Shown: in pieces, positions 115-35,148 of the stretch
Position numbering within the stretch: position 1 is the stretch's first letter
Layout of the letters: each line of letters starts with the position of its first letter
Virus record (IMG/VR): IMGVR_UViG_3300033145_000496
Coordinates: 1 to 35,148 of that record
Reading direction: 5' to 3' (one strand)
DNA: 35,148 nt
Source: a virus
Notes under the pieces: generated by a model
What the model saw: only the letters and a program-made list of their open reading frames with translations
Databases searched by the model: none
What the model was told of the DNA's origin: nothing
Position numbers and translations under genes: made by a program

Positions 115-357
115 ATATTTAGAAGAACAACAAGAAAGAGCCTTGCGCCTAGCTTGCCCCACTCCGATATTTTTGTCAAGGCAGACCAAAAGAAATTTAT
201 GAGTCTCTTGCAACTGTAGCAAAGCCTCTCTTGTGCTAACCCCGGAGCCATTGTCTATAACGATAAGGCGAAAAGAAACGCCTTTGCTTTTGTAAAGAGA
301 CTTTATGCAAGCCTCAGTTTTAAGATACCTTTTAAAAGATAAAACTACTACGTCCAT
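1..357 (-). CDS. Family 2 glycosyltransferase, N-terminal part (gene split by the circle junction)
   Basis: This is the first 119 codons of a GT-A fold glycosyltransferase that continues in frame at 34660-35034 once the 114-bp end repeat is merged; the joined protein is 243 aa. It probably transfers a sugar from a nucleotide-sugar donor; the acceptor is unknown. The start MDVVVLSFKR is a GT2-type first beta strand, followed by the VIDNGS segment near residues 33-38 and the metal-binding DND motif at residues 86-88 (FLDNDM). The ATG at 357 overlaps the end of the upstream radical SAM gene by 10 nt, which suggests coupled translation. The fragment has no stop inside 1-357 because the contig ends. 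The family call is firm; the substrate cannot be told. Confidence 0.88.
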   Translation of the reverse strand, partial: MDVVVLSFKRYLKTEACIKSLYKSKGVSFRLIVIDNGSGVSTREALLQLQETHKFLLVCLDKNIGVGQARRKALSCCSSKYVVFLDNDMVIDECFLVHLKKTIKPHRIVAAAGAKVINT

Positions 358-1028
358 TTGATTTCCGGGTCAATCTTAAAATTAACCATTTGATTATGTT
401 TCCTGACCCTTCGTCTAAATTCTGTTATCTCTGCTCTATTCCAATGAATCGGGTCAATGTCTGGACTTAATTGGTTATCGAAATAACAATCAGCCATTTG
501 GAAGTTCCATATTTTACATAAATCCATTTTCCTTAAATTTTCTTTATATGGTGTTTCCCAATTACAGACCACAAAGATCATAATATCTTTAGGGGCATAT
601 CCAGCATTCAACAATAATTGAGTTTTATTCTTAATCTCTTTCTGTAATTCAAAACCAAAATCCCAAGCTACTCTAACGTTCTTAAACCTTGATTGTTTTA
701 ATGCAGTCGCTAGCTCTTGAGTTAAAAACCTGTAATCAACCCCACAAAGCAACTCATAATAAATAACTTTATTATCAACTTTTCTTCTGCCTAGTTCTTT
801 TATGATTTCTAATGCCTCTGGGTGACAAAGCAAATTCATGTCCATTATTTTGACCCTGTTCCTAACTAGCTCGGGTATCTCAAACACTTTTAACTCTGGG
901 TTTTCTAACCATTCCCGGCAGAAAGGACACCCGTTAGGACACCCCTCACTAAGCCGAACCCATTGCTCCTCATTATTGAATTTATTATATTCACCCTTCG
1001 AGTAAGGCTTAATTCTGACTTCGCTCAT
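348..1028 (-). CDS. Small radical SAM domain protein
   Basis: A 226-aa protein with a canonical radical SAM [4Fe-4S] motif, C30-x3-C34-x2-C37 in EGCPNGCPFC, near the N-terminus. Members of this superfamily cleave S-adenosylmethionine to start radical chemistry. The protein is shorter than a usual full radical SAM barrel (about 250-350 aa) and has no recognisable SPASM or B12-binding domain. The ATG at 1028 has a good AAGGAG Shine-Dalgarno site. The next gene (glycosyltransferase, start at 357) overlaps its end by 10 nt, and a B12-type radical SAM gene lies about 0.35 kb upstream, so the two enzymes and the sugar transferases look like one cassette. The reaction and substrate are unknown. Confidence 0.82.
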   Translation of the reverse strand: MSEVRIKPYSKGEYNKFNNEEQWVRLSEGCPNGCPFCREWLENPELKVFEIPELVRNRVKIMDMNLLCHPEALEIIKELGRRKVDNKVIYYELLCGVDYRFLTQELATALKQSRFKNVRVAWDFGFELQKEIKNKTQLLLNAGYAPKDIMIFVVCNWETPYKENLRKMDLCKIWNFQMADCYFDNQLSPDIDPIHWNRAEITEFRRRVRKHNQMVNFKIDPEIKWT

Positions 1029-1036
1029 TTAGCTCC

Positions 1037-1147
1037 TTAGTTACCATACAAACAATCAACAAAATAATGCCACCATTTACAAAATAAGACAAAGAGGGCT
1101 ATAAAGACAATAATTTCTAATATTAATTTGATAGCCCTCTTAAACAT
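1037..1147 (-). CDS. 36-aa single-pass membrane peptide
   Basis: A short open frame, starting MFKRAIKLIL, fills what would otherwise be a gap. Two early basic residues are followed by a continuous hydrophobic run of about 15 residues and then a Trp/His/Cys-rich tail. Its ATG overlaps the stop of the upstream 75-aa gene (TAATG), and its stop sits just before the ribosome binding site of the radical SAM gene. The frame contains a perfect 11-bp inverted repeat (1092-1102 with 1131-1141). No homology is recognised; the tight overlap and membrane-like composition are the only support. Confidence 0.5.
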   Translation of the reverse strand: MFKRAIKLILEIIVFIALFVLFCKWWHYFVDCLYGN

Positions 1148-1374
1148 TAGCTAACTGGCCCCGACCCTGAAGGAGCTGCTTTAGCTGCTTTATGGGCTGC
1201 TACCAACTCTAGCATTTCTTTCCCCAAGTCAGCCAATTTCTTCTGCCACACATCAGCTAAACTAATAGGCATTTCACCTACATCAAGATCAGTTTTGCTG
1301 ATTGTTTTCCCCGTAATCCTCAAACTCAACTCAAACCGTACCATAGTCTTTTTTTCCTCTGGCATCTTATTCAC
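1147..1374 (-). CDS. Small charged protein between two radical SAM genes
   Basis: An unrecognised 75-aa protein. The frame opens with a GTG overlapping the stop of the radical SAM gene (GTGA); an internal ATG at 1365 (MPEEKK) also lies downstream of a run of G residues that could serve as ribosome binding site, so the true protein may be 72 aa. It has a mixed-charge N-terminal half, a helical middle rich in Lys/Leu/Ala, and an Ala-Pro-Ser-Gly tail ending SGSGPVS. Lying between two radical SAM enzymes, it could be a peptide substrate or partner, but no precursor-type core is recognised. Confidence 0.65.
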   Translation of the reverse strand: MNKMPEEKKTMVRFELSLRITGKTISKTDLDVGEMPISLADVWQKKLADLGKEMLELVAAHKAAKAAPSGSGPVS

Positions 1375-2492
1375 CCCCCTTTTTTTAATCGATCTGTTAA
1401 AACTTTCTCAACATAGCTATCAAAACTTTCCCGGTATTTATTCATCCACGCCACATTAAGCTCTACTTTTTCTATAAAATCAAGCGTAGCGGTTTTGTCT
1501 TTCTCTGTTTCTTGCGGATGGCCAAAAATAAAACTCCCAGCAACTTTAATCCCGCATCGATATGCCTCTTTCGCTATCTCAAGCCCTTGCTCAACCGTAG
1601 TTCCTTTATTGTAAACCTCAAGCATCTTTTGAGAGCCGCTTTCAAAACCGATATAAAAGACCTCGCATCCGGCCTGTTTCATTAAAGCCATCAAGTATTT
1701 ATCTATTGCATTAACCCGGGTTTCACATGCCCATTTAAAACGTAAGCCTCTTTTTAAAATTAATACGCAAATTTCTCTGACCCTCTCTTTATTGCAAGTA
1801 AAATTATCTTCCCGAAAATATATACCCTTAACACCAAATGTTTTCATAAGATATTCAATATCATCGACAACTCTTTCCGCTGAAAAGCAAGTATATTCCC
1901 GGCCCCAAACTTTTTTCGTATCACAAAAAGAACAACCAAAAGGACAGCCCCGGCTTGAACTATAATTATAGACAGGCTCATCTTCAAACCACTTGGTCCG
2001 GGTTAAATAAGGCATAGTAGAAAACAATTCATAATCTGGCCGAGGCAGCATATCTAAATCTTCTATCCGAGGATAACGAATAATCCCCTTTGGAGCAACG
2101 CCCAAAACCACATCCCTGATAACCTCTTCCCCTTCTCCCTGCACAATATAATCCACGCCCTTTAAGGTCCCCGGATAAACTGAAGCATGCGGACCGCCCA
2201 CGCAAATCCGTGGATTCTTAAACCCGGGTTGACGATAATAGTCTATAATCCTGAGAGTATCTTCAAAGCAAGGTGTATTTGAATAAATACAAACCAAATC
2301 ATAATCTTCAGCCAGAAAAAATCGATCTTTATAATACAAATAGCGATCGTAGAAATCAACCTCATGCCCCATGCTCTTAATGATAGAAAGTAAAAACCCC
2401 ACGCCTAAAGGAAATAACTTCTCTGTAAAATTTAAGCCGATATGTTCTTTAGGCGGAGCAGACGTATAAAAAGCTATTTTCTGTGGATTCAT
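1371..2492 (-). CDS. B12-binding-type radical SAM protein
   Basis: A 373-aa protein with the layout of cobalamin-dependent radical SAM enzymes. An N-terminal Rossmann-like region (about residues 5-130) carries the signatures VGGPHASVYP (98-107) and GEGEE (119-123). A radical SAM barrel follows with C183-x3-C187-x2-C190 in RGCPFGCSFC, then REDNF (228-231) and ESGS segments typical of the SAM-binding barrel. Families of this type methylate or rearrange unactivated carbons in cofactors, lipids, sugars or peptides. It is shorter at the C-terminus than most relatives (about 450-550 aa) and stops soon after the barrel. It overlaps the lipoprotein gene upstream by 4 nt and the 75-aa gene downstream by 4 nt. 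Such an enzyme is unusual in a 35-kb phage. Confidence 0.9.
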   Translation of the reverse strand: MNPQKIAFYTSAPPKEHIGLNFTEKLFPLGVGFLLSIIKSMGHEVDFYDRYLYYKDRFFLAEDYDLVCIYSNTPCFEDTLRIIDYYRQPGFKNPRICVGGPHASVYPGTLKGVDYIVQGEGEEVIRDVVLGVAPKGIIRYPRIEDLDMLPRPDYELFSTMPYLTRTKWFEDEPVYNYSSSRGCPFGCSFCDTKKVWGREYTCFSAERVVDDIEYLMKTFGVKGIYFREDNFTCNKERVREICVLILKRGLRFKWACETRVNAIDKYLMALMKQAGCEVFYIGFESGSQKMLEVYNKGTTVEQGLEIAKEAYRCGIKVAGSFIFGHPQETEKDKTATLDFIEKVELNVAWMNKYRESFDSYVEKVLTDRLKKGG

Positions 2493-2764
2493 TTAATCCT
2501 TTTTAGCAAGGCAGCTTTTTGAGCTACTTGTTTATTGATAATTTTTATCCCGGCATCTAGCCGTCCCTGTTTGATTAGCAAATCATAAATTTCTGCTTTT
2601 AGTTTTATTCTTTCAGCAGATTCTTTCTTTACTAATACAGGATTATTAACCACAACTTTCTGCTTCGCTTTAATTTGCCTTAATTGAGCTTTCTCTGCTT
2701 CCGTACAAGCCGCCGCACCCAAGAGTAAAATTCCCACCAAAAAGATTTTAAAACCTTTAACCAT
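2489..2764 (-). CDS. Small exported lipoprotein
   Basis: A 91-aa protein with an N-terminal Lys, a hydrophobic run (residues 5-16) and a lipobox-like LGAAAC with Cys20, so it is probably lipid-anchored in the envelope after signal peptidase II cleavage. The mature part is about 70 aa, Lys/Gln/Ala-rich, helical and likely to form a coiled coil. Small phage lipoproteins serve as outer spanins or superinfection-exclusion factors; neither role is shown here, and the endolysin is 3.3 kb away. It overlaps the radical SAM gene by 4 nt (ATGA). The GGGGGGAGCAA run before the ATG is its ribosome binding site and lies inside the preceding small gene. Confidence 0.7.
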   Translation of the reverse strand: MVKGFKIFLVGILLLGAAACTEAEKAQLRQIKAKQKVVVNNPVLVKKESAERIKLKAEIYDLLIKQGRLDAGIKIINKQVAQKAALLKRIK

Positions 2765-2853
2765 TTGCTCCCCCCTTTTTTGAATATCCGATCATAATTT
2801 TTTCCATACGTTTTTCCATCCACGGGCCGGTAGCGATCACCCTTACCGCTCAT
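2680..2853 (-). CDS. Short conserved phage protein of the MSGKGD type
   Basis: A 57-codon frame starting MSGKGDRYRPVDGK and continuing NYDRIF. From memory, short phage proteins with an MSGKGD...RP...Y(D/E)xI(F/W) pattern of about 40 residues recur widely without known function. The ATG directly follows the stop of the upstream gene (TAAATG). The recognisable part ends near residue 28; after that the frame runs on, Lys/Trp/Arg-rich, for about 29 residues inside the start of the lipoprotein gene, which suggests the original stop was lost. The N-terminal pattern makes this a real gene; the tail may be incidental. Confidence 0.72.
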   Translation of the reverse strand: MSGKGDRYRPVDGKTYGKNYDRIFKKGGSKWLKVLKSFWWEFYSWVRRLVRKQRKLN

Positions 2854-3108
2854 TTAACGGCCGCCGTTAGTTGCGCTATTGGCCATACCATCCAATGACC
2901 ACGGCCGCCCGCTTACAGGTCGCCTATAGCTAAACTCTTCAATGAACTTTCCCTCAGTAAAAACGGCATAGCCTTTTTCTCTTTTCTTGATAACGCAATC
3001 CCTTTTTGGGTCGTCCCTAAACATTTTAATAGCAAATTCAAGACACTCCTTTCTTTTAAACCATTCTGTTAATTGATAATCAAAACCTGAATGACATCGT
3101 GAAATCAT
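2854..3108 (-). CDS. Hypothetical 84-aa protein
   Basis: Not recognised. A small basic protein (starts MISRCHSGFDYQ) with an amphipathic helical middle (EWFKRKECLEFAIKMF) and a short beta-like segment (KGYAVFTEGKFIEEF). The ATG has a strong AAGGGG site 5 nt upstream, and that site is part of a leader element also found before two other genes. It is followed without a gap by the MSGKGD-type gene. It belongs to the replication/recombination operon. Confidence 0.6.
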   Translation of the reverse strand: MISRCHSGFDYQLTEWFKRKECLEFAIKMFRDDPKRDCVIKKREKGYAVFTEGKFIEEFSYRRPVSGRPWSLDGMANSATNGGR

Positions 3109-3113
3109 GTTGT

Positions 3114-3153
3114 CCCCTTTGTTTTATGAGAGGGGCAGAGATTTGAACTCTGC
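3114..3153 (-). repeat. Repeated leader element, copy 1
   Basis: Plus-strand consensus of three copies: CYCCTTT, then 8-12 nt, then GGGGCAGRG leading into a hairpin. Here the hairpin is 3136-3140 with 3148-3152 (5 bp, 7-nt loop), and the CCCC beyond it could pair with the AAGGGG ribosome binding site of the gene starting at 3108. Other copies are at 4893-4934 and 26479-26519. Confidence 0.5.
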
Positions 3154-3265
3154 AAGCCACGGCAGGGAGTTGTCCCCGTAAGGATTCTCAAGATATGACC
3201 ACTTCGGCACAAAGCCCGGGCTTTGAGTGTAATCCAAATGCTTTTCCTATTAAGCAACCCTCTCA
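3127..3265 (-). ncRNA. tRNA-like structured RNA between HNH and the 84-aa gene
   Basis: On the minus strand a perfect 8-bp closing stem (3258-3265 with 3127-3134) encloses two tRNA-like arms at the 5' side: a 4-bp D-arm-like hairpin with GG in its loop, and a 5-bp arm whose 7-nt loop ATTACAC would read anticodon UAC. At the 3' side is a 5-bp hairpin with T-loop-like TTCAAAT. Between them lie about 68 nt, far more than a normal variable arm, containing a 16-nt palindrome (CAAAGCCCGGGCTTTG) and a GG/CC hairpin. One extra C sits between T-arm and closing stem. It may be a degenerate or intron-bearing tRNA, or an unrelated structured leader: the 3' hairpin is also part of the repeated leader element. 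The HNH stop overlaps its first bases. Confidence 0.35.
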
Positions 3266-3658
3266 TCGCCTACCCTCAACTAAAATTCGTAACTCTTCTT
3301 TTAATATTAATTTTACCGTCAACCTATCTTGCACTTTCATCACCCTTCTTGCCAACATAAGCCTTTCCCACTCTTCTTCGCCCATGCGTTCTCGCACCCA
3401 GTTTTTAAAAGCTTTTATATTTTGATGGGCCTCTTCTTTGTGGCATCCATGATATTGACCTCGCTGACAAAGAGTAATCCCATTGGCTAATAAAAATCTA
3501 ATATTCGGGTAAGCCCCTTTTCCCCAAATATGATGGGCAACCAAAACAACACCCGGCTGTTTTGCAACCCTGCACAATTGACATTGATGGTTGTCCCTTT
3601 CTCGGACGACTTCACTCCACTTTCCTAATAAAGTTTTATATGATGGTATTAATATCAT
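3263..3658 (-). CDS. HNH endonuclease
   Basis: A 131-aa HNH nuclease: zinc-type CQLC (C26, C29), the first catalytic His in AHHI (42-43), the central Asn (N59) in LANGITLC, and the last His region QYHGCHKEEAH (70-77). It cuts DNA with a beta-beta-alpha metal fold. Free-standing phage HNH proteins act in packaging, recombination or homing; this one sits in the recombination operon directly after a NinB-like gene, not beside the terminase. The ATG overlaps the upstream stop by 4 nt. The stop overlaps the tRNA-like RNA, which would fit a homing nuclease next to a tRNA, but no intron boundaries are proven. Confidence 0.85.
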   Translation of the reverse strand: MILIPSYKTLLGKWSEVVRERDNHQCQLCRVAKQPGVVLVAHHIWGKGAYPNIRFLLANGITLCQRGQYHGCHKEEAHQNIKAFKNWVRERMGEEEWERLMLARRVMKVQDRLTVKLILKEELRILVEGRR

Positions 3659-6622: not shown

Positions 6623-6650
6623 ATTATATAATGTTTTCACAACTTGTCAA
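6623..6650 (-). promoter_or_regulatory. Sigma-70-type promoter of the endolysin/recombination operon
   Basis: Perfect boxes on the minus strand: TTGACA (6645-6650), a 16-nt spacer, TATAAT (6623-6628). Predicted start near 6616, at ATGGAGCA. The region from the -10 box to +8 nearly repeats that of the 7.75 kb promoter, including a second GGAGCA. Confidence 0.85.
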
Positions 6651-6662
6651 CAACTTTATTGC

Positions 6663-6914
6663 TTACTCTCCCAATGGTTTACGAACTTTTCTAAATTCTT
6701 TTGCATAAGGGCAATCTGCAAAATGAGAAATCCATTTACCCTGTTCATCCAATTTTATCGGAATCGGTTTTTGGTTTTTTAGCGTTTTGGCCCATAGGAT
6801 ACTGGTCCCACACTTACGGCAAGAGTCATAACCCAAGTAAATCGTTTCACCCGGAGAAAAACTAATCTCCACTTCTACATCGCACCCACCCTGCAATTTA
6901 ATGAGTTCTACCAT
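6663..6914 (-). CDS. Small zinc-finger phage protein
   Basis: An 83-aa protein with CRKCG (32-36) and HFADCP (64-69), a Cys2-His-Cys zinc site, plus the pattern ILWAKTLKNQKPIPIKLDEQG between them. This resembles a common small phage family in which a CxxC, a Trp, Pro-Ile and a distant H-x3-C occur in this order; its function is unknown. It starts just after the replication gene stop, with AAGGGG upstream, and ends 10 nt before the next promoter, so it closes the short 7.7-6.7 kb operon. Confidence 0.7.
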   Translation of the reverse strand: MVELIKLQGGCDVEVEISFSPGETIYLGYDSCRKCGTSILWAKTLKNQKPIPIKLDEQGKWISHFADCPYAKEFRKVRKPLGE

Positions 6915-6915
6915 A

Positions 6916-7689
6916 TCATTTAATCCCCTTTATTAATTTATCAACATCCTTTCTTACACTAGCCGCTTGTTCTGGCGAAATGTCTGGCCTCTTTTCAGTT
7001 TCTTTTTTATTTTTTACCTCTGGTAACTTTTTCTTAACGCCATCCCGGCGCATCCAATTGCGAATAACCGCAACATGGCAACTATATTTAGCATCAGCTT
7101 TAGCCACCCCGATCTGATCGATATAACCATCGAGATCAGTTAAATATTTTATAACAATTCTTTTCTCATAATCCGCAAGAACACTTTTAAGTTGATCTTC
7201 AGTTATCCTTACATTTGTTATTTGGTTTTCTTTTACATGCGGCGGTCTTATATATTTATCTTTATCTCTACCTTTACCTATACCTTTACCTTTACCTATA
7301 CCTATACCTGAACGCTTCAGGTAGCTTACGGGTAAATATTTAATAACATCAATATCTTTTCGAGAATAAGCTTCTAAGAGATCAATACAATTTTTTTGAA
7401 GGTTTGTAAGCTTTTTCCCATTTAGATTGCCTATCTGGAAAGGAATAAAATCTATTATAATAAGAAGTGGCCCCAAAACAACAACCCGGTCCTTCCCTTC
7501 ATTAAAAGCCTCGAACTCTTCCATGCAAACGATTTCTCCAACATGGAAAGAAGCTGCCTCAAAATCTATTTTCCAAACCCCGGCATTATTGCAGTTGTCG
7601 CAAATATATTGCCAAAAGTTTTTTTGCTTTGATGGCAACCTTCTGTACCACGGGTCATTCCATTTTGTCGTTTCAGTAAATCTTTTCAT
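6916..7689 (-). CDS. Putative replication initiator or organizer protein
   Basis: A 257-aa protein with two parts. The N-terminal part (1-130; starts MKRFTETTKWNDPWY) resembles the winged-helix region of phage replication proteins (WRRLP-like WYRRLPSKQKNFWQYI, and DNCNNAGVWKIDF). A basic Gly-Lys/Ile linker (about 129-146) leads to a helical C-terminal part. Phage initiators of this design bind the origin and load host helicase. The linker is encoded by seven tandem TACCTN hexamers, a possible origin inside the gene as in lambda O. It is the first gene after the 7.75 kb promoter. The ATG lacks a clear Shine-Dalgarno site but overlaps the stop of a 16-aa leader (ATGA). The family call is moderate. 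Confidence 0.62.
   Translation of the reverse strand: MKRFTETTKWNDPWYRRLPSKQKNFWQYICDNCNNAGVWKIDFEAASFHVGEIVCMEEFEAFNEGKDRVVVLGPLLIIIDFIPFQIGNLNGKKLTNLQKNCIDLLEAYSRKDIDVIKYLPVSYLKRSGIGIGKGKGIGKGRDKDKYIRPPHVKENQITNVRITEDQLKSVLADYEKRIVIKYLTDLDGYIDQIGVAKADAKYSCHVAVIRNWMRRDGVKKKLPEVKNKKETEKRPDISPEQAASVRKDVDKLIKGIK
7269..7310. repeat. Seven tandem hexamers (TACCTN)
   Basis: Seven uninterrupted copies of TACCTT/TACCTA, the last TACCTG, lie inside the putative replication gene and encode its Gly-Lys/Ile linker. Iteron-like arrays inside an initiator gene can be origin sites; a simple slippage repeat in a linker is equally possible. Confidence 0.75.
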
Positions 7690-7736
7690 AAACTAAAAAG
7701 TAAAATTTTTATTTTTTGTTTGCTCCGTTGCTCCAT
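7686..7736 (-). CDS. 16-aa leader peptide at the promoter's predicted +1
   Basis: MEQRSKQKIKILLFSL starts exactly 7 nt after the -10 box and ends in TGA overlapping the ATG of the replication gene (ATGA). No other ribosome binding site is visible for that gene, so coupling through this leader may be how it is translated. It resembles the start of the leader at 6616 (MEHRLEHKKI). Confidence 0.4.
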   Translation of the reverse strand: MEQRSKQKIKILLFSL

Positions 7737-7742
7737 GATTTA

Positions 7743-7770
7743 ATTGTATAACTTATTGGTAGGATGTCAA
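7743..7770 (-). promoter_or_regulatory. Sigma-70-type promoter of the replication operon
   Basis: TTGACA (7765-7770), 16-nt spacer, TACAAT (7743-7748) on the minus strand, predicted start near 7736. The stretch after the -10 (TAAATCATGGAGCA, then another GGAGCA) matches the 6.63 kb promoter, so both are probably controlled together. It lies directly after the late-operon terminator. Confidence 0.8.
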
Positions 7771-7771
7771 C

Positions 7772-7795
7772 AAAAAAATAGCTTTAAAAAGCTAT
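7772..7795 (-). terminator. Rho-independent terminator of the late operon
   Basis: Stem ATAGCTTT/AAAGCTAT (7788-7795 with 7778-7785), 2-nt loop, then seven U residues (7772-7778). It sits 25 nt past the stop of the last late gene and ends one base before the -35 box of the next promoter. Confidence 0.8.
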
Positions 7796-7819
7796 ACTGG
7801 TATTGACTTTCTTGAAAAG

Positions 7820-8293
7820 TTACAAGATAGTAAAAGAATTAAATAAAATTTTGATCGTATAAATTAAAACAACGCCCCGAAAAATTTCTTCAATCCAATC
7901 TCGAAAAGGCACATTGTATTTATTGACAAACTTATTAAGGCCACCCATGAGCAAGCCTAAAACAATCGATCTTATAAATAAAAAAATCCAAAACTTTGGA
8001 GTGTTAATTTGTATTGCATAAAAAATTGACGACATCCCGCACATAAAACCATGTAAATAAAAGTTATCTTTCTTTTTATTAAAAGGTATGCTGTCCCAGT
8101 AAGTTGATAATGCTCCCCACAAAGCAACAAAGGCAAGCCCGTGCCACCACCATTCAAAAGTAATCGGCAATCTAAAAATATACCAACCCAAGATTAAAGC
8201 GCAACCCCAATCCCGGGCCTTAGTATTAGACCCTGCCATTCCCCCACTTCGATATAATGCACCGCTGAGTAATGCTGCTAAATTTATATTCAT
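7820..8293 (-). CDS. Phage membrane protein with about four helices
   Basis: A 157-aa hydrophobic protein. An N-terminal soluble turn carries the motif GALYRSGGMAGSNTKARDWG, followed by about four membrane segments (30-45, 50-66, 80-97, 104-120) and a terminal hydrophobic stretch. A family of phage inner-membrane proteins with the same order (RxGG, then R-DWG, then W/G-rich helices) is often found near tail or lysis genes; its role is unknown. A holin-like role is possible. GGGGAG precedes the ATG. It is the last gene of the late operon. Confidence 0.65.
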   Translation of the reverse strand: MNINLAALLSGALYRSGGMAGSNTKARDWGCALILGWYIFRLPITFEWWWHGLAFVALWGALSTYWDSIPFNKKKDNFYLHGFMCGMSSIFYAIQINTPKFWIFLFIRSIVLGLLMGGLNKFVNKYNVPFRDWIEEIFRGVVLIYTIKILFNSFTIL

Positions 8294-8305
8294 TAATCTC
8301 CCCGG

Positions 8306-9409
8306 TTATTTCCACATAATATAATTAAGAGTTATAAACGGCTGCAAATTAGTATGGGCTGATGCTGCTGATGCTGTTGAGTTAGCGTTTGTTACTGCCG
8401 TCCCTACTGTTCCCCCACTATTAGGCGAACCATAAAATTCTACAAATGCTGGTCCCGAGCCTGTTCTTGTTGCCGCACCGTGAGTATGAGCAGGAACGCC
8501 AGACTGAGCGGCTGTTAAAGTTACGGTTTCCGCTCCATCAGCATTTCCTAAAGTATCAGCATCAGCATCAGTAACCCGGTTAGCAGATGCACCGCCCATA
8601 TTATCTTTTCCTAATGGAACACGGCCTCTTAAATCTGGAACTTCAAAATCAGTTATATCAGAGCCACCATATACATTAGCAAGGACCGCAAACAAATCTG
8701 CAAATGTCGGGTCGGTTGTTCCATTATAAGCCTGCCCATAACAAAGGACAGCCCCATCAGGCGGAGTATCTGTCGGCCAAATCTCCATCGACCCGGTTGC
8801 ATGATATTTTAATTTTTGATCGTCATTAACGTCAGTTATATTATCACTACCATCATTGAAAAAACTTCCGATTCGTCTAAACAAAGTAAGTCCATCAGGA
8901 GCAGTCGGGCTTAATGAGATCACAACTGTAAACGTAGTCGCCGCTGCATCAGCGCAAGCGAATACATAGTATCTTTTGCTAGTATCTTCTGCCCCGGTAT
9001 CAATATCTCCCCAATCAACCGTTGTGTCGCCCGTATTACGCCTAAAACAAACATTCCCGGAACCATCAACAATCGCTATCTCTCCGGCCCGGACATATAA
9101 ATCCGCTACGCCTTTGTATTCAACCTGACAATTTCTGCGGAAGTCTCTTAGTAAATTTCGATATGAAGCATTATTCGCCTGAGTGCTTCCCATAGCACCA
9201 AGCATTGTTTCTATAGCTTCGATTTCATCATATCCCACATTGCAGTTCGCACCTTCCATTTTATGCGTTCCGTCAACTAACTGGGTGAAAGTCTTTTTAG
9301 CGTTGGGAAAACTAGCAGCAAACTTTACTAATCCCGAGGCTAAAAGAATTTCCTCATAGCTGAATTTTTCTCCTTGCAACCATTGTAGAAATAAGCCTAA
9401 AATATTCAT
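8306..9409 (-). CDS. Tail collar-domain fibre protein
   Basis: A 367-aa virion protein with a phage tail collar domain in its C-terminal half: GSMEIWPTDTPPDGAVLCYG (about 205-224), then DFEVPDLRGRVPLG and AHTH, ending in the typical LQPFITLNYIMWK. Such proteins form short fibres or baseplate knobs that touch the host surface. The first 31 residues (MNILGLFLQWLQG...) match the N-terminus of the major capsid protein at 16 of 31 positions, a link not expected from function. The ATG has GAGG 5 nt upstream, right after the hub gene. It is the last recognisable virion gene. Confidence 0.88.
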   Translation of the reverse strand: MNILGLFLQWLQGEKFSYEEILLASGLVKFAASFPNAKKTFTQLVDGTHKMEGANCNVGYDEIEAIETMLGAMGSTQANNASYRNLLRDFRRNCQVEYKGVADLYVRAGEIAIVDGSGNVCFRRNTGDTTVDWGDIDTGAEDTSKRYYVFACADAAATTFTVVISLSPTAPDGLTLFRRIGSFFNDGSDNITDVNDDQKLKYHATGSMEIWPTDTPPDGAVLCYGQAYNGTTDPTFADLFAVLANVYGGSDITDFEVPDLRGRVPLGKDNMGGASANRVTDADADTLGNADGAETVTLTAAQSGVPAHTHGAATRTGSGPAFVEFYGSPNSGGTVGTAVTNANSTASAASAHTNLQPFITLNYIMWK

Positions 9410-16181: not shown

Positions 16182-16413
16182 TTGATTCCCTTGTTCCTTG
16201 AGCAAGTTCAATCCCTAATTTTATAGCTCTTTCAGAATACTTTGTTTTTATTAAAAGCCGGACAGTAGCCCCGACTTGAGTAAGCTCGGCTGTTGAATTA
16301 TCTACAAGCTTTTTAATGTCTATTGCATTCAATAAAACATCAATCTCTTTTTCAAGAGATTCCTCTAACCGCTCTAACGCATCAAAATGTTCCTGAACCT
16401 TTTTATTTAACAT
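16162..16413 (-). CDS. Hypothetical helical protein in connector region
   Basis: An unrecognised 83-aa, almost entirely helical protein (start MLNKKVQEHFDALERLEESLEKEIDVLL), probably forming a coiled coil. It overlaps the glycosyltransferase gene by 11 nt upstream and the morphogenesis gene downstream, so it is translated with them. A small head-tail joining factor is possible from position only. Confidence 0.55.
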   Translation of the reverse strand: MLNKKVQEHFDALERLEESLEKEIDVLLNAIDIKKLVDNSTAELTQVGATVRLLIKTKYSERAIKLGIELAQGTRESNDKGKD

Positions 16414-17089
16414 CCCACTTCTTTTTAAAAAATTCGTGCCGCTCTTTTGAGCTTGATATATATTTTTCTTTTCCCATTAATTTAATAGAAGAATTTATGT
16501 CGTGATAATATCTATCTTGTGCATTATTAATATTTGCTGCGTATTGAAGTATTCCAGCTTTTTTTAATTGCATATAAAAGTCTCTTTCTTCCCAGCCATA
16601 ACCCGGACCACTAAACGGACCACCGACTTCCATTCTTAAACCAAGATCAAAAACCTTGCGCCGGACCATACCATAATACATGTTTGAGCTAGAGACAACC
16701 TTAACATCTTGTAAGTAAGAACACCATTCGGCCTGCTTGCCCCACTCAGCAGTAAATTTGTTAGGCGGAAACCCTATCGCATCTACTTCCTCATGGACAA
16801 TTAAATAATTATATAAACATTGAACGCTATTCCGCACGGGAACAATATCTCCATCTAACATTAAAACAAAATCCCCGGTGCTTAAATCTATTCCTTGATT
16901 CTTGCCAACCGAAACACCCATATTTTCATAGTTGTTGATTGTCGCTATCCTTTGGCACCCATCATCAGAACCGTTATCCACTATAATAATTTCGTGGCTA
17001 ATCTCAAACAATTCTTCTTTTAATATCTCAAGCGTTTTTTCTAGCGCTTTGATATTGTTCCAAGTTAAAATTACAACTGATAATCTCAT
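16403..17089 (-). CDS. Family 2 glycosyltransferase inside the connector genes
   Basis: A 228-aa GT2 enzyme: MRLSVVILTWNN opening strand, EIIIVDNGSDDG (33-44), metal-binding DGD at 79-81 (LMLDGDIVP), and the later GYGWEERDFYMQLKKAG segment typical of the acceptor side. It should transfer a sugar from a nucleotide-sugar to an unknown acceptor. It overlaps the connector gene before it and the helical gene after it by 4 and 11 nt, so it is co-translated with virion genes. That suggests glycosylation of a structural protein or late change of the host surface. It is a different gene from the two at 34-35 kb. Confidence 0.92.
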   Translation of the reverse strand: MRLSVVILTWNNIKALEKTLEILKEELFEISHEIIIVDNGSDDGCQRIATINNYENMGVSVGKNQGIDLSTGDFVLMLDGDIVPVRNSVQCLYNYLIVHEEVDAIGFPPNKFTAEWGKQAEWCSYLQDVKVVSSSNMYYGMVRRKVFDLGLRMEVGGPFSGPGYGWEERDFYMQLKKAGILQYAANINNAQDRYYHDINSSIKLMGKEKYISSSKERHEFFKKKWDVK

Positions 17090-28243: not shown

Positions 28244-29767
28244 TTATTTATTCTCTTTCTCAAATAATTCGGGCATTCTATCTATTAGTTTTAGCCCTTC
28301 CCCTTTTTCATTGTTATCTATATCATCAAGCATAACCTTTATTTTATCTTCTGGCATGCGAGGAAATTTTTTCTTAACGATGGCTTTCTTAATTTCTTTA
28401 TTAAACTCATTCCCCAAACTGATCTTAATCGCCTTTTCAGCCTCTTCTAAATCTTCAAATAAGCTCTGCATTGAAAACTCTTTCGGATAGCTGATGGTCC
28501 CTTCAAATTTCTTCTTTTCCCAAAGAGCATATTTCTGCCATATCCTTGTTTCACCATCTTCAAGGTTTGCAGCCTTTTTAGATAAAGAAGAATTTGTTTC
28601 GTTGAAATCCCAAGCCTTAGAAACCCCTGATTGCTCAATGGCCCGCTCTCCCTTGTATGAACCTGACCCGCCCTCTAGTTTAGCCAACTGATATATCTTA
28701 GAAATCTGCCTGTCTATATGTTTAAAATAAACTTCTGCATTAGCAGGCGGCGGGCTTATATACTCCGGCTTATTTCTATCTTCCGGGTACAGCAACGCTT
28801 TTGATGTCCCAACCGTCAAATCGTTATATTCATCAGCCGACCCCTGTATCGCTAAAAAAGCAAAAGTCTGATCTCTAAGAATCTGCTTTAACTCTGAGCA
28901 AGAATTATAAATGTCTCTCGTAATAAAAGCAATATCAGCAATCGTACTTATACCTAAAAAATTCTTATATTTTTTGCTCTTCTTATCAAATACGCAGCTT
29001 ATCGGAACATATCCCAAGCCATGGACCCCAGTATCTATCTGAGCATAATCGCTGTCGTAAATAGTCCAATTCGTGCGAGTCCATAAACGATAACGGACAT
29101 TTATTAATTTACTTTTATCATATTTATCCGGGTCTATAGCTGTATCGACAACTTCTTTTATTAAAACCCAATAAGGCTCGCCGAACTCATCTAAGGCCCA
29201 ATTTATAACATTTTGAGGATGTATTAAAGTCAAGTAAGGAAACAATTTATTGTCTATTTTATCTTTAAACGTTCTAATTTGCTTACCATCAACAACCCTA
29301 GGCATATCGGACATAACAAAAATATGCCCGTAAAGCTGACTTAACTCGGCCATTTCAGCCCGAAACTCCGCAATACTATTTCCTTGCCGATCAATGTTCG
29401 TTTTGCGTTCTTTGATAATTGTGTCAAGCCCTTTGAACTCTTCATTAATCGGATGCTTGAATAAATGATTAGTATAAATGTCAATTATCGGCGAACAGAA
29501 GTTATAATAATAACTCATCTGAAGCCGTTCAGTATAGCTATTGTCTTTTTCTTTCGGATGCTTGAATAAATGATTCTGCACCGTACTTTTTAAAGGCTGG
29601 CCATTAACCATAACCGTAATCCCGGTCGATGCGTTTATCATCGTGCTAGAAACAATCTGCGCCTGAGTATAATCCACTCCCCCTTCATAACTATCTAAAA
29701 GGAAGTTCCAATATGGACAATAACTCTTGTGAATTTTGTGAGGATTTTCAACTAAATCTTTTATCAT
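28244..29767 (-). CDS. Portal protein
   Basis: 507 aa, between the terminase large subunit (ATGA overlap) and the scaffold. The order of segments fits the DUF4055-type portal family: an N-terminal wing (MIKDLVENPHKIHKSYCPYWNF), YSYYYNFCSPIIDIYTNHLF-like helix, GHIFVMSDMP, the stem region (LTVGTSKALLYPEDRNKPEYISPP), IDRQISKIYQLAKLEG and an acidic C-terminus. A dodecamer forms the DNA channel at one capsid vertex. Length and place are as expected. Confidence 0.9.
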   Translation of the reverse strand: MIKDLVENPHKIHKSYCPYWNFLLDSYEGGVDYTQAQIVSSTMINASTGITVMVNGQPLKSTVQNHLFKHPKEKDNSYTERLQMSYYYNFCSPIIDIYTNHLFKHPINEEFKGLDTIIKERKTNIDRQGNSIAEFRAEMAELSQLYGHIFVMSDMPRVVDGKQIRTFKDKIDNKLFPYLTLIHPQNVINWALDEFGEPYWVLIKEVVDTAIDPDKYDKSKLINVRYRLWTRTNWTIYDSDYAQIDTGVHGLGYVPISCVFDKKSKKYKNFLGISTIADIAFITRDIYNSCSELKQILRDQTFAFLAIQGSADEYNDLTVGTSKALLYPEDRNKPEYISPPPANAEVYFKHIDRQISKIYQLAKLEGGSGSYKGERAIEQSGVSKAWDFNETNSSLSKKAANLEDGETRIWQKYALWEKKKFEGTISYPKEFSMQSLFEDLEEAEKAIKISLGNEFNKEIKKAIVKKKFPRMPEDKIKVMLDDIDNNEKGEGLKLIDRMPELFEKENK

Positions 29768-31047
29768 ATCTTTATTCCTTCTATTCTGCCTTTGTTTAGG
29801 CTAAACTCTTTCTCAATCATGTACCCCAAGCCATCCGAGGCATGAGTGAGATTAAAATCACGGCCCTTGTCTATTCTTGTCGTCCCTTCTTTATATGGAA
29901 CCTGTTCAAAGTCTCTAATTAAATGTTTACACTTATTAGGATTCACAAAAATCCTACGCTCATTTCGACTATTGCAAATCATTCCATTCACCGCATTAAT
30001 CCGATCTCTTTCGGCCGGATTCTTTTTTGGGATTCTTTTTTCAATCCCATAAATCCCAAGCTCAGATTCAATAATTTTATAATTCGTTACATTGCTTGCA
30101 GTAGTTCTTGAATGCCCCGTAGCATCACCGTATAGAATTATTCCTTTATCGTGATTCGGGTATCTTGCTTTGAACTCTTGGCAAGCCTCAATAGTGTTAG
30201 AATTTTTTAGTCTGATTTCATCTATAACATAAACTTCTTTCAAATTGGTTTGAAGGTTAATCCCAACTTGTGCGATCTCCCAAACCATCGGGTCAACATT
30301 AAAATCGCAGCATAAACCTAAAGGCAATCGAGGATTATATTGAGCAACTTTAAAAGCCCGGGACCCGGCATTCTCTTGCCGATTAAACGTATAATAAACC
30401 GACCCCTCAAATATAACAAACTCGCCATATAATTCTTGTTGAGCAAACTTCTTATCATACTTACGTTCTAAAGCTGAAATGGCTAATTTATTAAGATGGG
30501 TATTTTGATGTGTAGCAAACTGGATAACGCCATATTCACTATCTTTATTTTCTATAAAAACATCGTGAATCCAATCAAAACTATTTGGTGAAGTAGTAAG
30601 AATCCCTTTACCCCCGGTAGATAAAACCCGGCCCAAAAGAACATCCCAAATACCATTCTTGCATTCCCGGCCCTCGTCTAACCAGAATCCGCAAAGAGTT
30701 GCATTCCTTACTCTGTCTGGTTTATCAGCGCTAAAGCCGTGAACTTCTCGACCGTTCTTTAATGTGATTATTTTAAAAGATTTATTTTCACTAGCAATTA
30801 ACGGCCTAGCCGCTCTTTTAAATTCTCGCCAAGTTGTTCTTTCAAGCATGTGGAAGGTCGGAGCTACGACTCCATAAACTCCATCGCCTTTAGCGTTCCA
30901 AGACTGTCTGCTGGATTCTCTAGCCCCAGCATAGGTTTTTCCGCCTCGAATGCCGCAGATCATTGCAACATATCTAAACACCCTTTCAATAGCATAGTGA
31001 AAAGCCATTTGCCCCTCATGCGGTTTATATTTTTTAAGATGTATCAT
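29764..31047 (-). CDS. terL: Terminase large subunit
   Basis: 427 aa with both halves of the packaging motor. ATPase: Walker A GIRGGKT (32-38), Walker B LCGFWLDE (118-125) with the catalytic Glu, and coupling motif TTSP (151-154). RNase H-like nuclease: Asp248 in CCDFNVDP, Asp308 in GDATGHS, and H402/D405 in LTHASDG. It pumps DNA into the prohead through the portal and cuts concatemers. It overlaps the small subunit by 1 nt and the portal by 4 nt. Every motif is intact. Confidence 0.97.
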   Translation of the reverse strand: MIHLKKYKPHEGQMAFHYAIERVFRYVAMICGIRGGKTYAGARESSRQSWNAKGDGVYGVVAPTFHMLERTTWREFKRAARPLIASENKSFKIITLKNGREVHGFSADKPDRVRNATLCGFWLDEGRECKNGIWDVLLGRVLSTGGKGILTTSPNSFDWIHDVFIENKDSEYGVIQFATHQNTHLNKLAISALERKYDKKFAQQELYGEFVIFEGSVYYTFNRQENAGSRAFKVAQYNPRLPLGLCCDFNVDPMVWEIAQVGINLQTNLKEVYVIDEIRLKNSNTIEACQEFKARYPNHDKGIILYGDATGHSRTTASNVTNYKIIESELGIYGIEKRIPKKNPAERDRINAVNGMICNSRNERRIFVNPNKCKHLIRDFEQVPYKEGTTRIDKGRDFNLTHASDGLGYMIEKEFSLNKGRIEGIKI

Positions 31048-33710: not shown

Positions 33711-33977
33711 TTATCTCTCCTGAATCGTTATCCCCACAAGCACTTTAACAACCCTCGCTTTAGGATAAGGAATAAAATCCCCTAAAGACTCTTCCTCGTA
33801 TTTTTTCATTTTCTTTAAATATCCCCGGGCTATTTTTCTAGTAGTAAATAAGCACACTCGGCACCCTTCAAGTTGCGGCGGTATGTTCGGAATACCATCA
33901 AACCACCAGTATCGACCAACAAGGCCCGGGTGCTTTTTTCCGTTTAAGTCTATTGCCCAAGCATAAAATTTACTCAT
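33711..33977 (-). CDS. Hypothetical 88-aa protein
   Basis: I chose ATG 33977 (MSKFYAWAIDLNG) because it has AAGGA 6 nt upstream and overlaps the glycosyltransferase stop (ATGA); the frame is open to 34010. An alpha/beta protein with FYAWAID, RYWWFDGIPNIPPQLEG, LFTTRKIARGYLKKM and a basic ARVVKVLVGI strand. Not recognised, though the first and third segments resemble small phage proteins that handle a bound ligand. Its close coupling to the glycosyltransferase may mean a shared role. Confidence 0.52.
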   Translation of the reverse strand: MSKFYAWAIDLNGKKHPGLVGRYWWFDGIPNIPPQLEGCRVCLFTTRKIARGYLKKMKKYEEESLGDFIPYPKARVVKVLVGITIQER

Positions 33978-34678
33978 TTGCATTCCTTTTCCACAATAGC
34001 CCGATGGCAAACTTTTTGTTGCGATCGAACCGCTTGAGATATTTGATTCTTGTGTAGCCGATAAAAATATAAAGTTTCTTTTAGCGTTTTGAGAATCCAG
34101 TTTCTTTTACGCATTGATACTAGCATGTAAAAATCTTGTGCGTATTTATATTTCCAGCCGCCAATCTCTTTTATTGCTTTCGTACGAAACAAAGAAGCCC
34201 CAGCGATCGTCCCGGCTAACTTATCTATCCTTTGATTCTCCGGGTCCGCAGTATTTATATGAGTAAGATGGCCCATAATATTAACAACGCCATAGTTATC
34301 CCCGACCACACCGATCTTGTCATGTTTTATAATGGCATCAAGCAATCTCTCTATCCTATTCGGTGAAGAAAAATCATCTGCATCGTGCCGGGCGATAAAC
34401 GGTTCCTCGATTCTCTCAAGGACCATATTTAAAGATTTTGTTAAACCCATGTGATCTTGTTTAATAAAAACAATCCTCTCATCTTGATCTGCATGATTTT
34501 GTATAATTTTTTCTGCCTCTGGAAAATAACCATCTAAAATAATATAAAAAACAAAGTTTGAATGCGTTTGCATAAGGTTGGAAGTTATTGCTTTCTTTAA
34601 ATAGCGTTCTTCATTTTCTCCATAACTAAAAAAGAACACGGGCATTATAATTGCAACTTTTATGTTTTGATTTTCCAT
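33974..34678 (-). CDS. Family 2 glycosyltransferase
   Basis: 234 aa. GT-A pattern: IKVAIIMPVFFFSYG opening strand, LKKAITSNLMQTHSNF helix, metal motif DAD at 99-101 (RHDADDFSSPNRIE), and the acceptor-side region GGWKYKYAQDFYMLVSM near 173-189. It probably transfers a sugar to an unknown acceptor. It overlaps the circle-spanning glycosyltransferase by 19 nt, so the two are co-translated and may act in turn. Confidence 0.92.
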   Translation of the reverse strand: MENQNIKVAIIMPVFFFSYGENEERYLKKAITSNLMQTHSNFVFYIILDGYFPEAEKIIQNHADQDERIVFIKQDHMGLTKSLNMVLERIEEPFIARHDADDFSSPNRIERLLDAIIKHDKIGVVGDNYGVVNIMGHLTHINTADPENQRIDKLAGTIAGASLFRTKAIKEIGGWKYKYAQDFYMLVSMRKRNWILKTLKETLYFYRLHKNQISQAVRSQQKVCHRAIVEKECK

Positions 34679-35148
34679 TTTTCCTCAAAGTAAGTTTTAC
34701 TGGCCAATAAAGTTTTAGGGTCCCGGCGTATCTTTGCGTAATCTCCTAAATGCTCCGGCGAATGAAAAGCGATCGCATCGGCACAATATAAAAGCTTAAA
34801 CCCAAGCTCTCGGAACTGCAACATCATATCCATATCTTCATACCCAATAAAAAACTTTTTATCAATCTTAATTTTATCAAGAGCAGACTTGCGGTAAATT
34901 GTAGCCCCGCCATGGATTAAATCACAAACCCTAGATACCATGGTCCTCGAATCGTATCGATCTAGTTGGTCCCTTGAATAATCTATCCTATCATTAATAA
35001 TATCCCTTCCGCACAATTGAAGTTTCCCGGTGTTTGTATTTATAACTTTTGCCCCAGCAGCAGCTACTATTCTATGAGGCTTAATTGTCTTTTTTAGATG
35101 GACCAGAAAGCATTCATCTATAACCATATCATTATCAAGGAAAACAAC
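34660..35148 (-). CDS. Family 2 glycosyltransferase, C-terminal part (gene split by the circle junction)
   Basis: Continuation of the gene whose start is at 357. The acceptor-side signature is HGGATIYRKSAL, then FIGYEDMDMMLQFRELGFKLLY, the ED-x-D-x-R-x-x-G helix of GT2 enzymes. Bases 35035-35148 repeat 1-114. The frame is open through the repeat and joins exactly (119 codons from 1-357 plus 124 from here and a stop). Confidence 0.88.
   Translation of the reverse strand, partial: VVFLDNDMVIDECFLVHLKKTIKPHRIVAAAGAKVINTNTGKLQLCGRDIINDRIDYSRDQLDRYDSRTMVSRVCDLIHGGATIYRKSALDKIKIDKKFFIGYEDMDMMLQFRELGFKLLYCADAIAFHSPEHLGDYAKIRRDPKTLLASKTYFEEKWKIKT
35035..35148. repeat. Terminal direct repeat, right copy
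   Basis: Identical to 1-114; see the left copy. The overlap supports a closed circular map of about 35,034 bp. Confidence 0.95.

Follow-up and report, generated by a model that had tools for sequence, protein, structure and literature searches.

Hypervariable phage regions combining glycosyltransferase and radical SAM genes are known from pelagimyophages, T4-like SAR11 phages whose host-recognition cluster (HRC; mean 44.6 kb, tail fibres included) encodes several glycosyltransferases and, in some genomes, radical SAM cassettes (PMC7029224). Besides, glycans have been described on capsid or tail-tube subunits of mycobacteriophages (Freeman et al., 2023, as cited in PMC12619734). With phage glycan cassettes and virion glycosylation already known, the system treated here, encoded on a 35,148-nt virus record (IMGVR_UViG_3300033145_000496, the whole of which is referred to as the window), is a variant of these. 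It resembles the HRC in being a variable phage region with glycosyltransferase and radical SAM genes but is found in a phage of about 35 kb, lies near the terminase gene and is accompanied by a fixed glycosyltransferase of the GT2 family in the head-tail cluster. From mycobacteriophage virion glycosylation it differs in lineage and in the addition of radical SAM enzymes and, moreover, in being known from genes alone, with glycosylation of the virion being suggested by gene position.

An exact 114-bp terminal repeat (bases 35035–35148 are a copy of bases 1–114) closes the record to a circle of about 35.0 kb, the complete genome of a tailed phage. All genes of the row under study are located on the minus strand, and neighbours are closely packed or overlap by 4 bp, as had been deduced in the original prediction of an overlapping string. 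Most upstream is a small lipoprotein-like ORF of 91 aa (lipo91, 2489–2764) with a G-rich ribosome site and the N-terminus MVKGFKIFLVGILLLGAAAC, in which the lipobox-like stretch LLLGAAAC fits by eye; a family match or relatives among the fetched loci were not found, and its membership in a glycan module is uncertain. It is followed by the genes of a radical SAM enzyme with B12-binding domain (B12-rSAM, 1371–2492), two small ORFs, a stand-alone radical SAM protein (rSAM2, 348–1028) and two glycosyltransferases (GT2-A and GT2-B). The reading frames are long and undisturbed, family matches score highly, and a homologue in another virus shares 57% identity, all of which places these genes far outside what chance would produce. 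Hence, both predicted radical SAM genes with intact CxxxCxxC motif, the lipoprotein-like ORF and the two GT2 genes are real; the latter two, however, lie outside the interval 348–2764 to which the cassette had been assigned, and a third GT2 gene (GT2-C, 16403–17089), situated within the structural genes, had been overlooked.

B12-rSAM (373 aa, short C-terminus) belongs to the radical SAM superfamily according to its cluster motif CPFGCSFC, a PF04055 match (E = 1.3e-21, 77.9 bits versus a cut-off of 29.5) and fold matches to AprD4, OxsB, TsrM and MiaB. The anticipated B12-type N-terminal part is evident from PF02310 (E = 1.7e-12, 47.7 bits versus a cut-off of 32.1), which places the enzyme in the cobalamin-dependent class B, with cobalamin binding being predicted. 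AprD4 bears a B12-binding domain as well but works without cobalamin. This radical SAM 1,2-diol dehydratase (PDB 6fd2) is the best solved match of B12-rSAM by both sequence (4e-19) and fold (TM 0.76), whereas B12-rSAM scores just 80.9 bits against the NCBIfam cut-off of 500 for AprD4, is shorter and adjoins GT2 genes. Scores for ApyD (143.6 versus 750 bits) and HpnJ (134.2 versus 577.6 bits) were similarly low, and as none of the NCBIfam equivalog cut-offs (HpnJ, ApyD, BchE, PhpK, AprD4 and TIGR04295) was reached, the concern that the enzymes might simply group with housekeeping families did not materialize. The nearest cellular B12-rSAMs found show 36–38% identity and are encoded beside acyltransferase, GT4, epimerase, SPASM radical SAM and methyltransferase genes (named by eye from sequence), a neighbourhood that is of surface-polysaccharide type judging from its gene content. 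A close cellular source was not found: identities did not exceed 38% among 396 genomes of one phylum, and in a second phylum (398 genomes) no match reached E ≤ 1e-45.

Assignment of GT2-A, GT2-B and GT2-C to the GT2 family is well supported by PF00535 (55.0, 68.7 and 53.4 bits, respectively, versus a cut-off of 23.3) and by the D-x-D metal motifs DND, DAD and DGD. GT2-A (243 aa) straddles the record ends and is complete only in the circle closed via the 114-bp repeat, with the N-terminal part encoded at 1–357 (PF00535, 1.2e-14) and the C-terminal part at 34660–35148 (PF13641/PF13632, both just below the family cut-off). GT2-B (33974–34678, 234 aa; PF00535, 7.7e-19) has, like GT2-A, no membrane span detectable by hydropathy. 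GT2-A and GT2-C show weak matches to the GtrB-like phrog_841, recalling the phage GT2s of Gtr O-antigen conversion cassettes; in contrast to the latter, GT2-A and GT2-B lack membrane spans and a GtrA flippase was not found among the proteins scanned. GT2-C (minus strand, 228 aa; PF00535, 3.8e-14) is a core component of the head-tail morphogenesis cluster. It has 30 orthologues in related contigs (39–55% identity) with conserved DXD and E/D motifs, and gene order in all 30 is consistent with a single position among head-tail genes. A homologue of the same neighbouring gene (s299) is located just upstream in 28 of the 30 contigs, with gaps of 0–45 bp in 26 of these 28, while relatives of GT2-C and this neighbour were not detected in named phages (50,697 records).

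For identifying relatives, the large terminase subunit (29764–31047, minus strand) was used as lineage anchor, resulting in 31 viral contigs at 59–71% before values drop to 31%. Among named phages, the best MCP match was at 31%. Searching genome collections with the terminase gave one match of 65%, located on a contig of 5.7 kb from a Clostridia MAG; this match is probably stray and as such a poor host pointer, and all others were at or below 36%. In a single relative (L031), the order B12-rSAM, GT2-A, GT2-B is kept at 57, 35 and 48% identity, respectively; here, a methyltransferase domain is fused to the GT2-A counterpart (1509–2804, the 35% applying to its glycosyltransferase domain), the GT2-B counterpart (2786–3502) follows, and both the small peptide and rSAM2 are missing. 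A further GT2-B relative, a fragment in L028, is 53% identical. Upstream of the terminase, L031 encodes this methyltransferase–glycosyltransferase fusion plus two more glycosyltransferases, while other relatives carry an E1-type TPP enzyme pair with three radical SAM and glycosyltransferase-like proteins (L007), a GT2 with a SPASM radical SAM protein (L023) or an NDP-sugar epimerase/dehydratase with glycosyltransferases (L022); in L034, a similar glycan gene set is found elsewhere in the genome. PF00535 occurs in 8 of 21 close relatives versus none of 24 viruses with distant terminases (Fisher p = 0.0009), while enrichment of PF04055 (3/21 versus 1/24) was not significant. In other relatives the region harbours genes not clearly of glycan type, such as that of a polytopic protein in L009, L021 and L025; a GT-C enzyme, as considered for this protein, would be a tentative assignment, Pfam, NCBIfam and PDB profiles having given no match. 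Likewise, the relatives' glycosyltransferase-like proteins gave no PF20691 match that would indicate TAGT/DNA-glycosylation enzymes.

The second radical SAM protein has a different history. rSAM2 (226 aa) shows the cluster motif CPNGCPFC but stays below the PF04055 cut-off (E = 0.026, 15.2 versus 29.5 bits). Nevertheless, it matches PHROG 9298 'radical SAM domain protein' (8e-15), and its AlphaFold model (AF2, pLDDT 89.7) retrieves with Foldseek the radical SAM folds of AprD4, MiaB and LIAS as top matches, so that motif and modelled barrel place it in the radical SAM superfamily. Its relatives are encoded in 20 other viral contigs and in the archaeal virus vir520 (Methanofastidiosa virus), the protein of which is 44% identical over 95%, and in none of them do they adjoin glycosyltransferases of the type found in the row. 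In 9 of 19 non-redundant loci, a DNA methyltransferase gene is located within 500 bp of the rSAM2 relative, whereas the corresponding rate among the remaining genes of these loci is about 0.19 (p = 0.005). These methyltransferases are of differing types. In the present phage, by contrast, rSAM2 adjoins a GT2 gene and has no methyltransferase neighbour. It also keeps the CxxxCxxC motif, whereas the middle cysteine is lacking in vir520, L167 and L181, being replaced by histidine in the latter two (CxxxHxxC). From this distribution, rSAM2 appears as a separate, independently mobile viral gene, and hence the row is not one machine as originally proposed. Of the conserved partner set sought by neighbourhood comparison, only B12-rSAM, GT2-A and GT2-B recur together, in L031; independent gain thus applies to rSAM2 but not to these three, and the peptide, having no relatives, stays outside as well.

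The peptide had been predicted with 75 aa between the two radical SAM genes. The ORF (1147–1365) is real, although 72 aa starting with ATG at 1365 after AAGGGGGG is likelier than 75 aa from the possible GTG at 1374, and an additional 36-aa ORF (1037–1147) between it and rSAM2, with a start overlapping the preceding stop (TAATG) and a hydrophobic stretch (KD mean 2.8) typical of a single-span membrane protein, had gone unmentioned. Both are orphans in the searches conducted, as the 36-aa ORF has no relatives among fetched loci and the peptide neither family match nor viral relative. A phage RiPP system, with the peptide as substrate of one radical SAM enzyme or of both, could be read from the overlap of the B12-rSAM and peptide genes and from ApyD, a RiPP enzyme, being the best NCBIfam match of B12-rSAM. 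However, this match falls far short of the cut-off and HpnJ scores almost as high, the peptide is devoid of cysteine, a recurring small peptide family was not found beside rSAM2 relatives, and RRE, SPASM or exporter were not seen. Absence of the peptide from the relative keeping B12-rSAM and both glycosyltransferases argues against it being their substrate. The RiPP interpretation was consequently rejected as very improbable. DNA hypermodification by rSAM2, perhaps together with the glycosyltransferases, finds encouragement in the methyltransferase neighbourhood of rSAM2 relatives, in PF01555 being present in 10 of 20 rSAM2 viruses versus 3 of 24 controls, and in virus-encoded DNA glycosyltransferases being on record (Pyle, 2024, as cited in PMC12619734). 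Against this, the glycosyltransferases of the window are ordinary GT2s (the TET-associated GT, TAGT, model gives background on GT2-A, E = 0.13), rSAM2 lacks the methyltransferase neighbour here, and among the window proteins scanned, which covered the small ORFs only in part, neither TET protein nor dCMP hydroxymethylase or other hydroxymethylpyrimidine-making gene nor DNA methyltransferase was found. For this phage, we consider such chemistry quite unlikely.

That the variable region merely gathers host genes without common function would agree with rSAM2, the peptide, the 36-aa ORF and lipo91 each having separate relatives or none, but it leaves the gene order shared with L031 and the recurrence of glycan-type genes in the region unexplained and is unlikely, too. 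Alteration of the host surface polysaccharide, an O-antigen/capsule-like conversion blocking superinfection or re-adsorption, is possible, if on the doubtful side. The glycosyltransferases would then use lipid-linked precursors within the cytoplasm of the host, and B12-rSAM would alter a sugar or lipid, in line with the clusters surrounding the nearest cellular B12-rSAMs, the resemblance of the GT2s to EPS, teichuronate and rhamnosyl glycosyltransferases (NCBIfam), the polytopic membrane protein in the region of some relatives and the corresponding interpretation of pelagimyophage HRC glycosyltransferases (PMC7029224). Yet, GtrA-type flippase and membrane-bound GtrB were not found, and a GT2 locked into the virion-assembly cluster is not needed for such a conversion. 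Sequence alone cannot separate the two targets, with the virion being the most likely and the host surface a less likely one.

We regard the chances as about even that B12-rSAM, GT2-A and GT2-B constitute an exchangeable module for glycan synthesis with the virion as likeliest acceptor and rSAM2 as separate gene. The surface-glycan, nucleotide-sugar or virion role originally considered for the whole row suits these three genes, in view of their conserved order in L031, the glycan genes near the relatives' terminase, the polysaccharide-type clusters of cellular B12-rSAMs and the GT2 fixed in virion assembly. The best solved relative, AprD4, acting on an aminosugar also supports the module. GT2-C is tied to the module solely through shared lineage and joint presence in those few genomes that cover both places. 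Substrate, acceptor and the link to GT2-C are what we infer: the glycosyltransferases would add sugars from host nucleotide-sugars to a growing glycan (a nucleotide-sugar gene was not found in the window), and B12-rSAM would modify sugar or carrier by C-methylation or AprD4-like deoxygenation. The acceptor would most likely be the phage's own virion, with GT2-C starting or completing the glycan, and the host envelope only in second place; rSAM2 would have landed between the parts of the module as a mobile viral gene.

Independently of this module, the small viral radical SAM family around PHROG 9298, in which DNA methyltransferase neighbours and CxxxHxxC variants occur, may be a candidate source of as yet undescribed nucleic-acid chemistry, and literature linking radical SAM enzymes to phage DNA hypermodification was not found. 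Rather speculative is the wider notion that the lineage glycosylates its own virions via core GT2-C and diversifies the glycan by exchangeable gene sets located close to its terminase gene, with radical SAM enzymes of cobalamin type among their products. If true, the virion coat, beyond the tail fibre, would be a variable surface, glycosylation would be built into virion assembly throughout a phage lineage, radical SAM enzymes providing an exchangeable layer, and the GT2-C orthologues fixed in 30 contigs would provide a genomic handle on virion glycosylation in uncultivated phages.

An exact terminal repeat of 114 bp (1-114 identical to 35035-35148) is present in the 35,148-base virus record, so that joining the ends gives a genome of about 35,034 bp that is complete or circularly closed. 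The genes of interest share the minus strand; read along it, they are lipo91 (2764-2489), the 373-aa radical SAM protein with B12-binding domain (B12-rSAM, 2492-1371, matching PF02310 and PF04055), a 72-aa ORF (1365-1147; the 75 aa of the original prediction had been counted from a GTG), a 36-aa membrane-type ORF (1147-1037), the second radical SAM protein of 226 aa (rSAM2, 1028-348, matching PHROG 9298) and the glycosyltransferases GT2-A (from 357 across the contig ends to 34660) and GT2-B (34678-33974), both matching PF00535. Small genes come next, along with ParB and the terminase. Hence, the gene row had been read correctly, and two glycosyltransferases do follow the radical SAM genes once the circle is closed, a claim resting on that closure as GT2-A crosses the contig ends.

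The row had also been taken for a single cassette, whereas gene order and family membership indicate that it is composite. With the terminase large subunit as lineage anchor, 31 mostly fragmentary contigs were found in the viral collection, to which the distributions refer, at 59-71% identity, with a gap down to 31%; no close named phage was found for the lineage. The region near the terminase differs between these relatives. One of them, L031, encodes MT-A70, B12-rSAM (57%), a methyltransferase-GT2 fusion (35% to GT2-A), a GT2 (48% to GT2-B) and two further glycosyltransferase-like genes, the fusion gene directly following B12-rSAM where the window holds the 72-aa ORF, the 36-aa ORF and rSAM2, which has its own viral family. 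B12-rSAM, GT2-A and GT2-B together are common to these two genomes only. Elsewhere, the region holds a 515-aa GT2 with a SPASM radical SAM protein (L023), or an NDP-sugar epimerase/dehydratase, split across the contig ends, with glycosyltransferases (L022), a similar set being found at another genomic place in L034. In L007, the phage carries a pair of E1-type TPP enzyme genes, alpha and beta-like (763-1883), next to three radical SAM genes and glycosyltransferase-like genes. A conserved polytopic membrane protein of about 440 aa encoded close to the terminase (52% identical; L009 194-1519, L021 815-2155, L025 2304-3665) has no match in Pfam, NCBIfam or PDB. PF00535 occurs in 8/21 close relatives versus 0/24 more distant terminase relatives (p = 0.0009), the latter being mostly longer, while enrichment of PF04055 is not significant (3/21 versus 1/24).

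B12-rSAM reaches no NCBIfam equivalog. Its best solved relative by sequence and by fold (medium-confidence model, pLDDT 73.8) is the sugar-modifying enzyme AprD4, and the closest cellular relatives found (36-38%, 493 aa) are neighbored by an acyltransferase, glycosyltransferases, an epimerase, a SPASM-type radical SAM protein and a methyltransferase, as named by eye from sequence. We infer a sugar or sugar carrier as substrate. The window and L031 proteins have little sequence beyond the barrel core, each being about 120 aa shorter than the cellular relatives; as both are short in this way, the reduced C-terminus belongs to the family and does not reflect a recent truncation.

rSAM2, predicted to be a bare radical SAM core, belongs to a small family (PHROG 9298; L165, L166-L185) of 20 viral loci plus the archaeal virus vir520, in unrelated phages, with DNA methyltransferases of several types as recurring neighbors. 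With ORFs called in a simple way and neighbors assigned by blastp to seed sequences, a DNA methyltransferase lies within 500 bp in 10/21 loci (9/19 without near-duplicates) versus about 0.19 for other genes of the same loci. PF01555 occurs in 10/20 rSAM2 viruses versus 3/24 controls. These numbers overstate independence because several loci are from related phages. Of the motif cysteines, the outer two never vary in the family, but the central one is replaced by His in L167 and L181 (CxxxHxxC) and is absent in vir520. A homologue in L003/L185, the same record (L003 9899-10504), bears an unrelated Cys-rich N-terminus lacking CxxxCxxC.

A third glycosyltransferase, GT2-C (16403-17089), overlooked in the original prediction, sits among structural genes and keeps D-x-D and E-x-D-type motifs in an alignment of six orthologues. 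The viral scan gave 30 orthologues (39-55% identity, including three near-duplicate pairs), the next matches being at 31%; L009 and L015 lack GT2-C, and no match was obtained among 50,697 named phage records. One gene order fits all 30 contigs: a homologue of the head-tail ORF s299 is upstream in 28, the other two beginning at the contig end, with a gap of 0-45 bp in 26 contigs, 148 bp in L233 and 215 bp in L232, and homologues of s83, s152 or s161 from the same cluster follow in 29, L233 ending there. This fixed position argues for a role of GT2-C in making the virion. In the structural region of L014, an 834-aa protein (6634-9138) carries a GT2 domain at its start, possibly a glycosyltransferase fused to a virion protein. 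The window also encodes a tail protein (8306-9409) with Mtd second domain and tail-collar domain, an arrangement also present in receptors that retroelements diversify; the general annotation showed no reverse transcriptase.

Precedents are the glycosyltransferase and radical SAM cassettes in the host-recognition cluster of pelagimyophages (PMC7029224), the abundance of radical SAM genes in viruses of anoxic systems (PMC9723712) and the glycosylation of mycobacteriophage virions, according to work cited in PMC12619734. A strong rival is modification of the host surface; however, the glycosyltransferases have no membrane spans, no flippase is among the scanned window proteins (family-library scans included part of the small ORFs), and a GT2 is locked into virion assembly. 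For these reasons, the favored reading is glycosylation of the virion, extended by a variable module.
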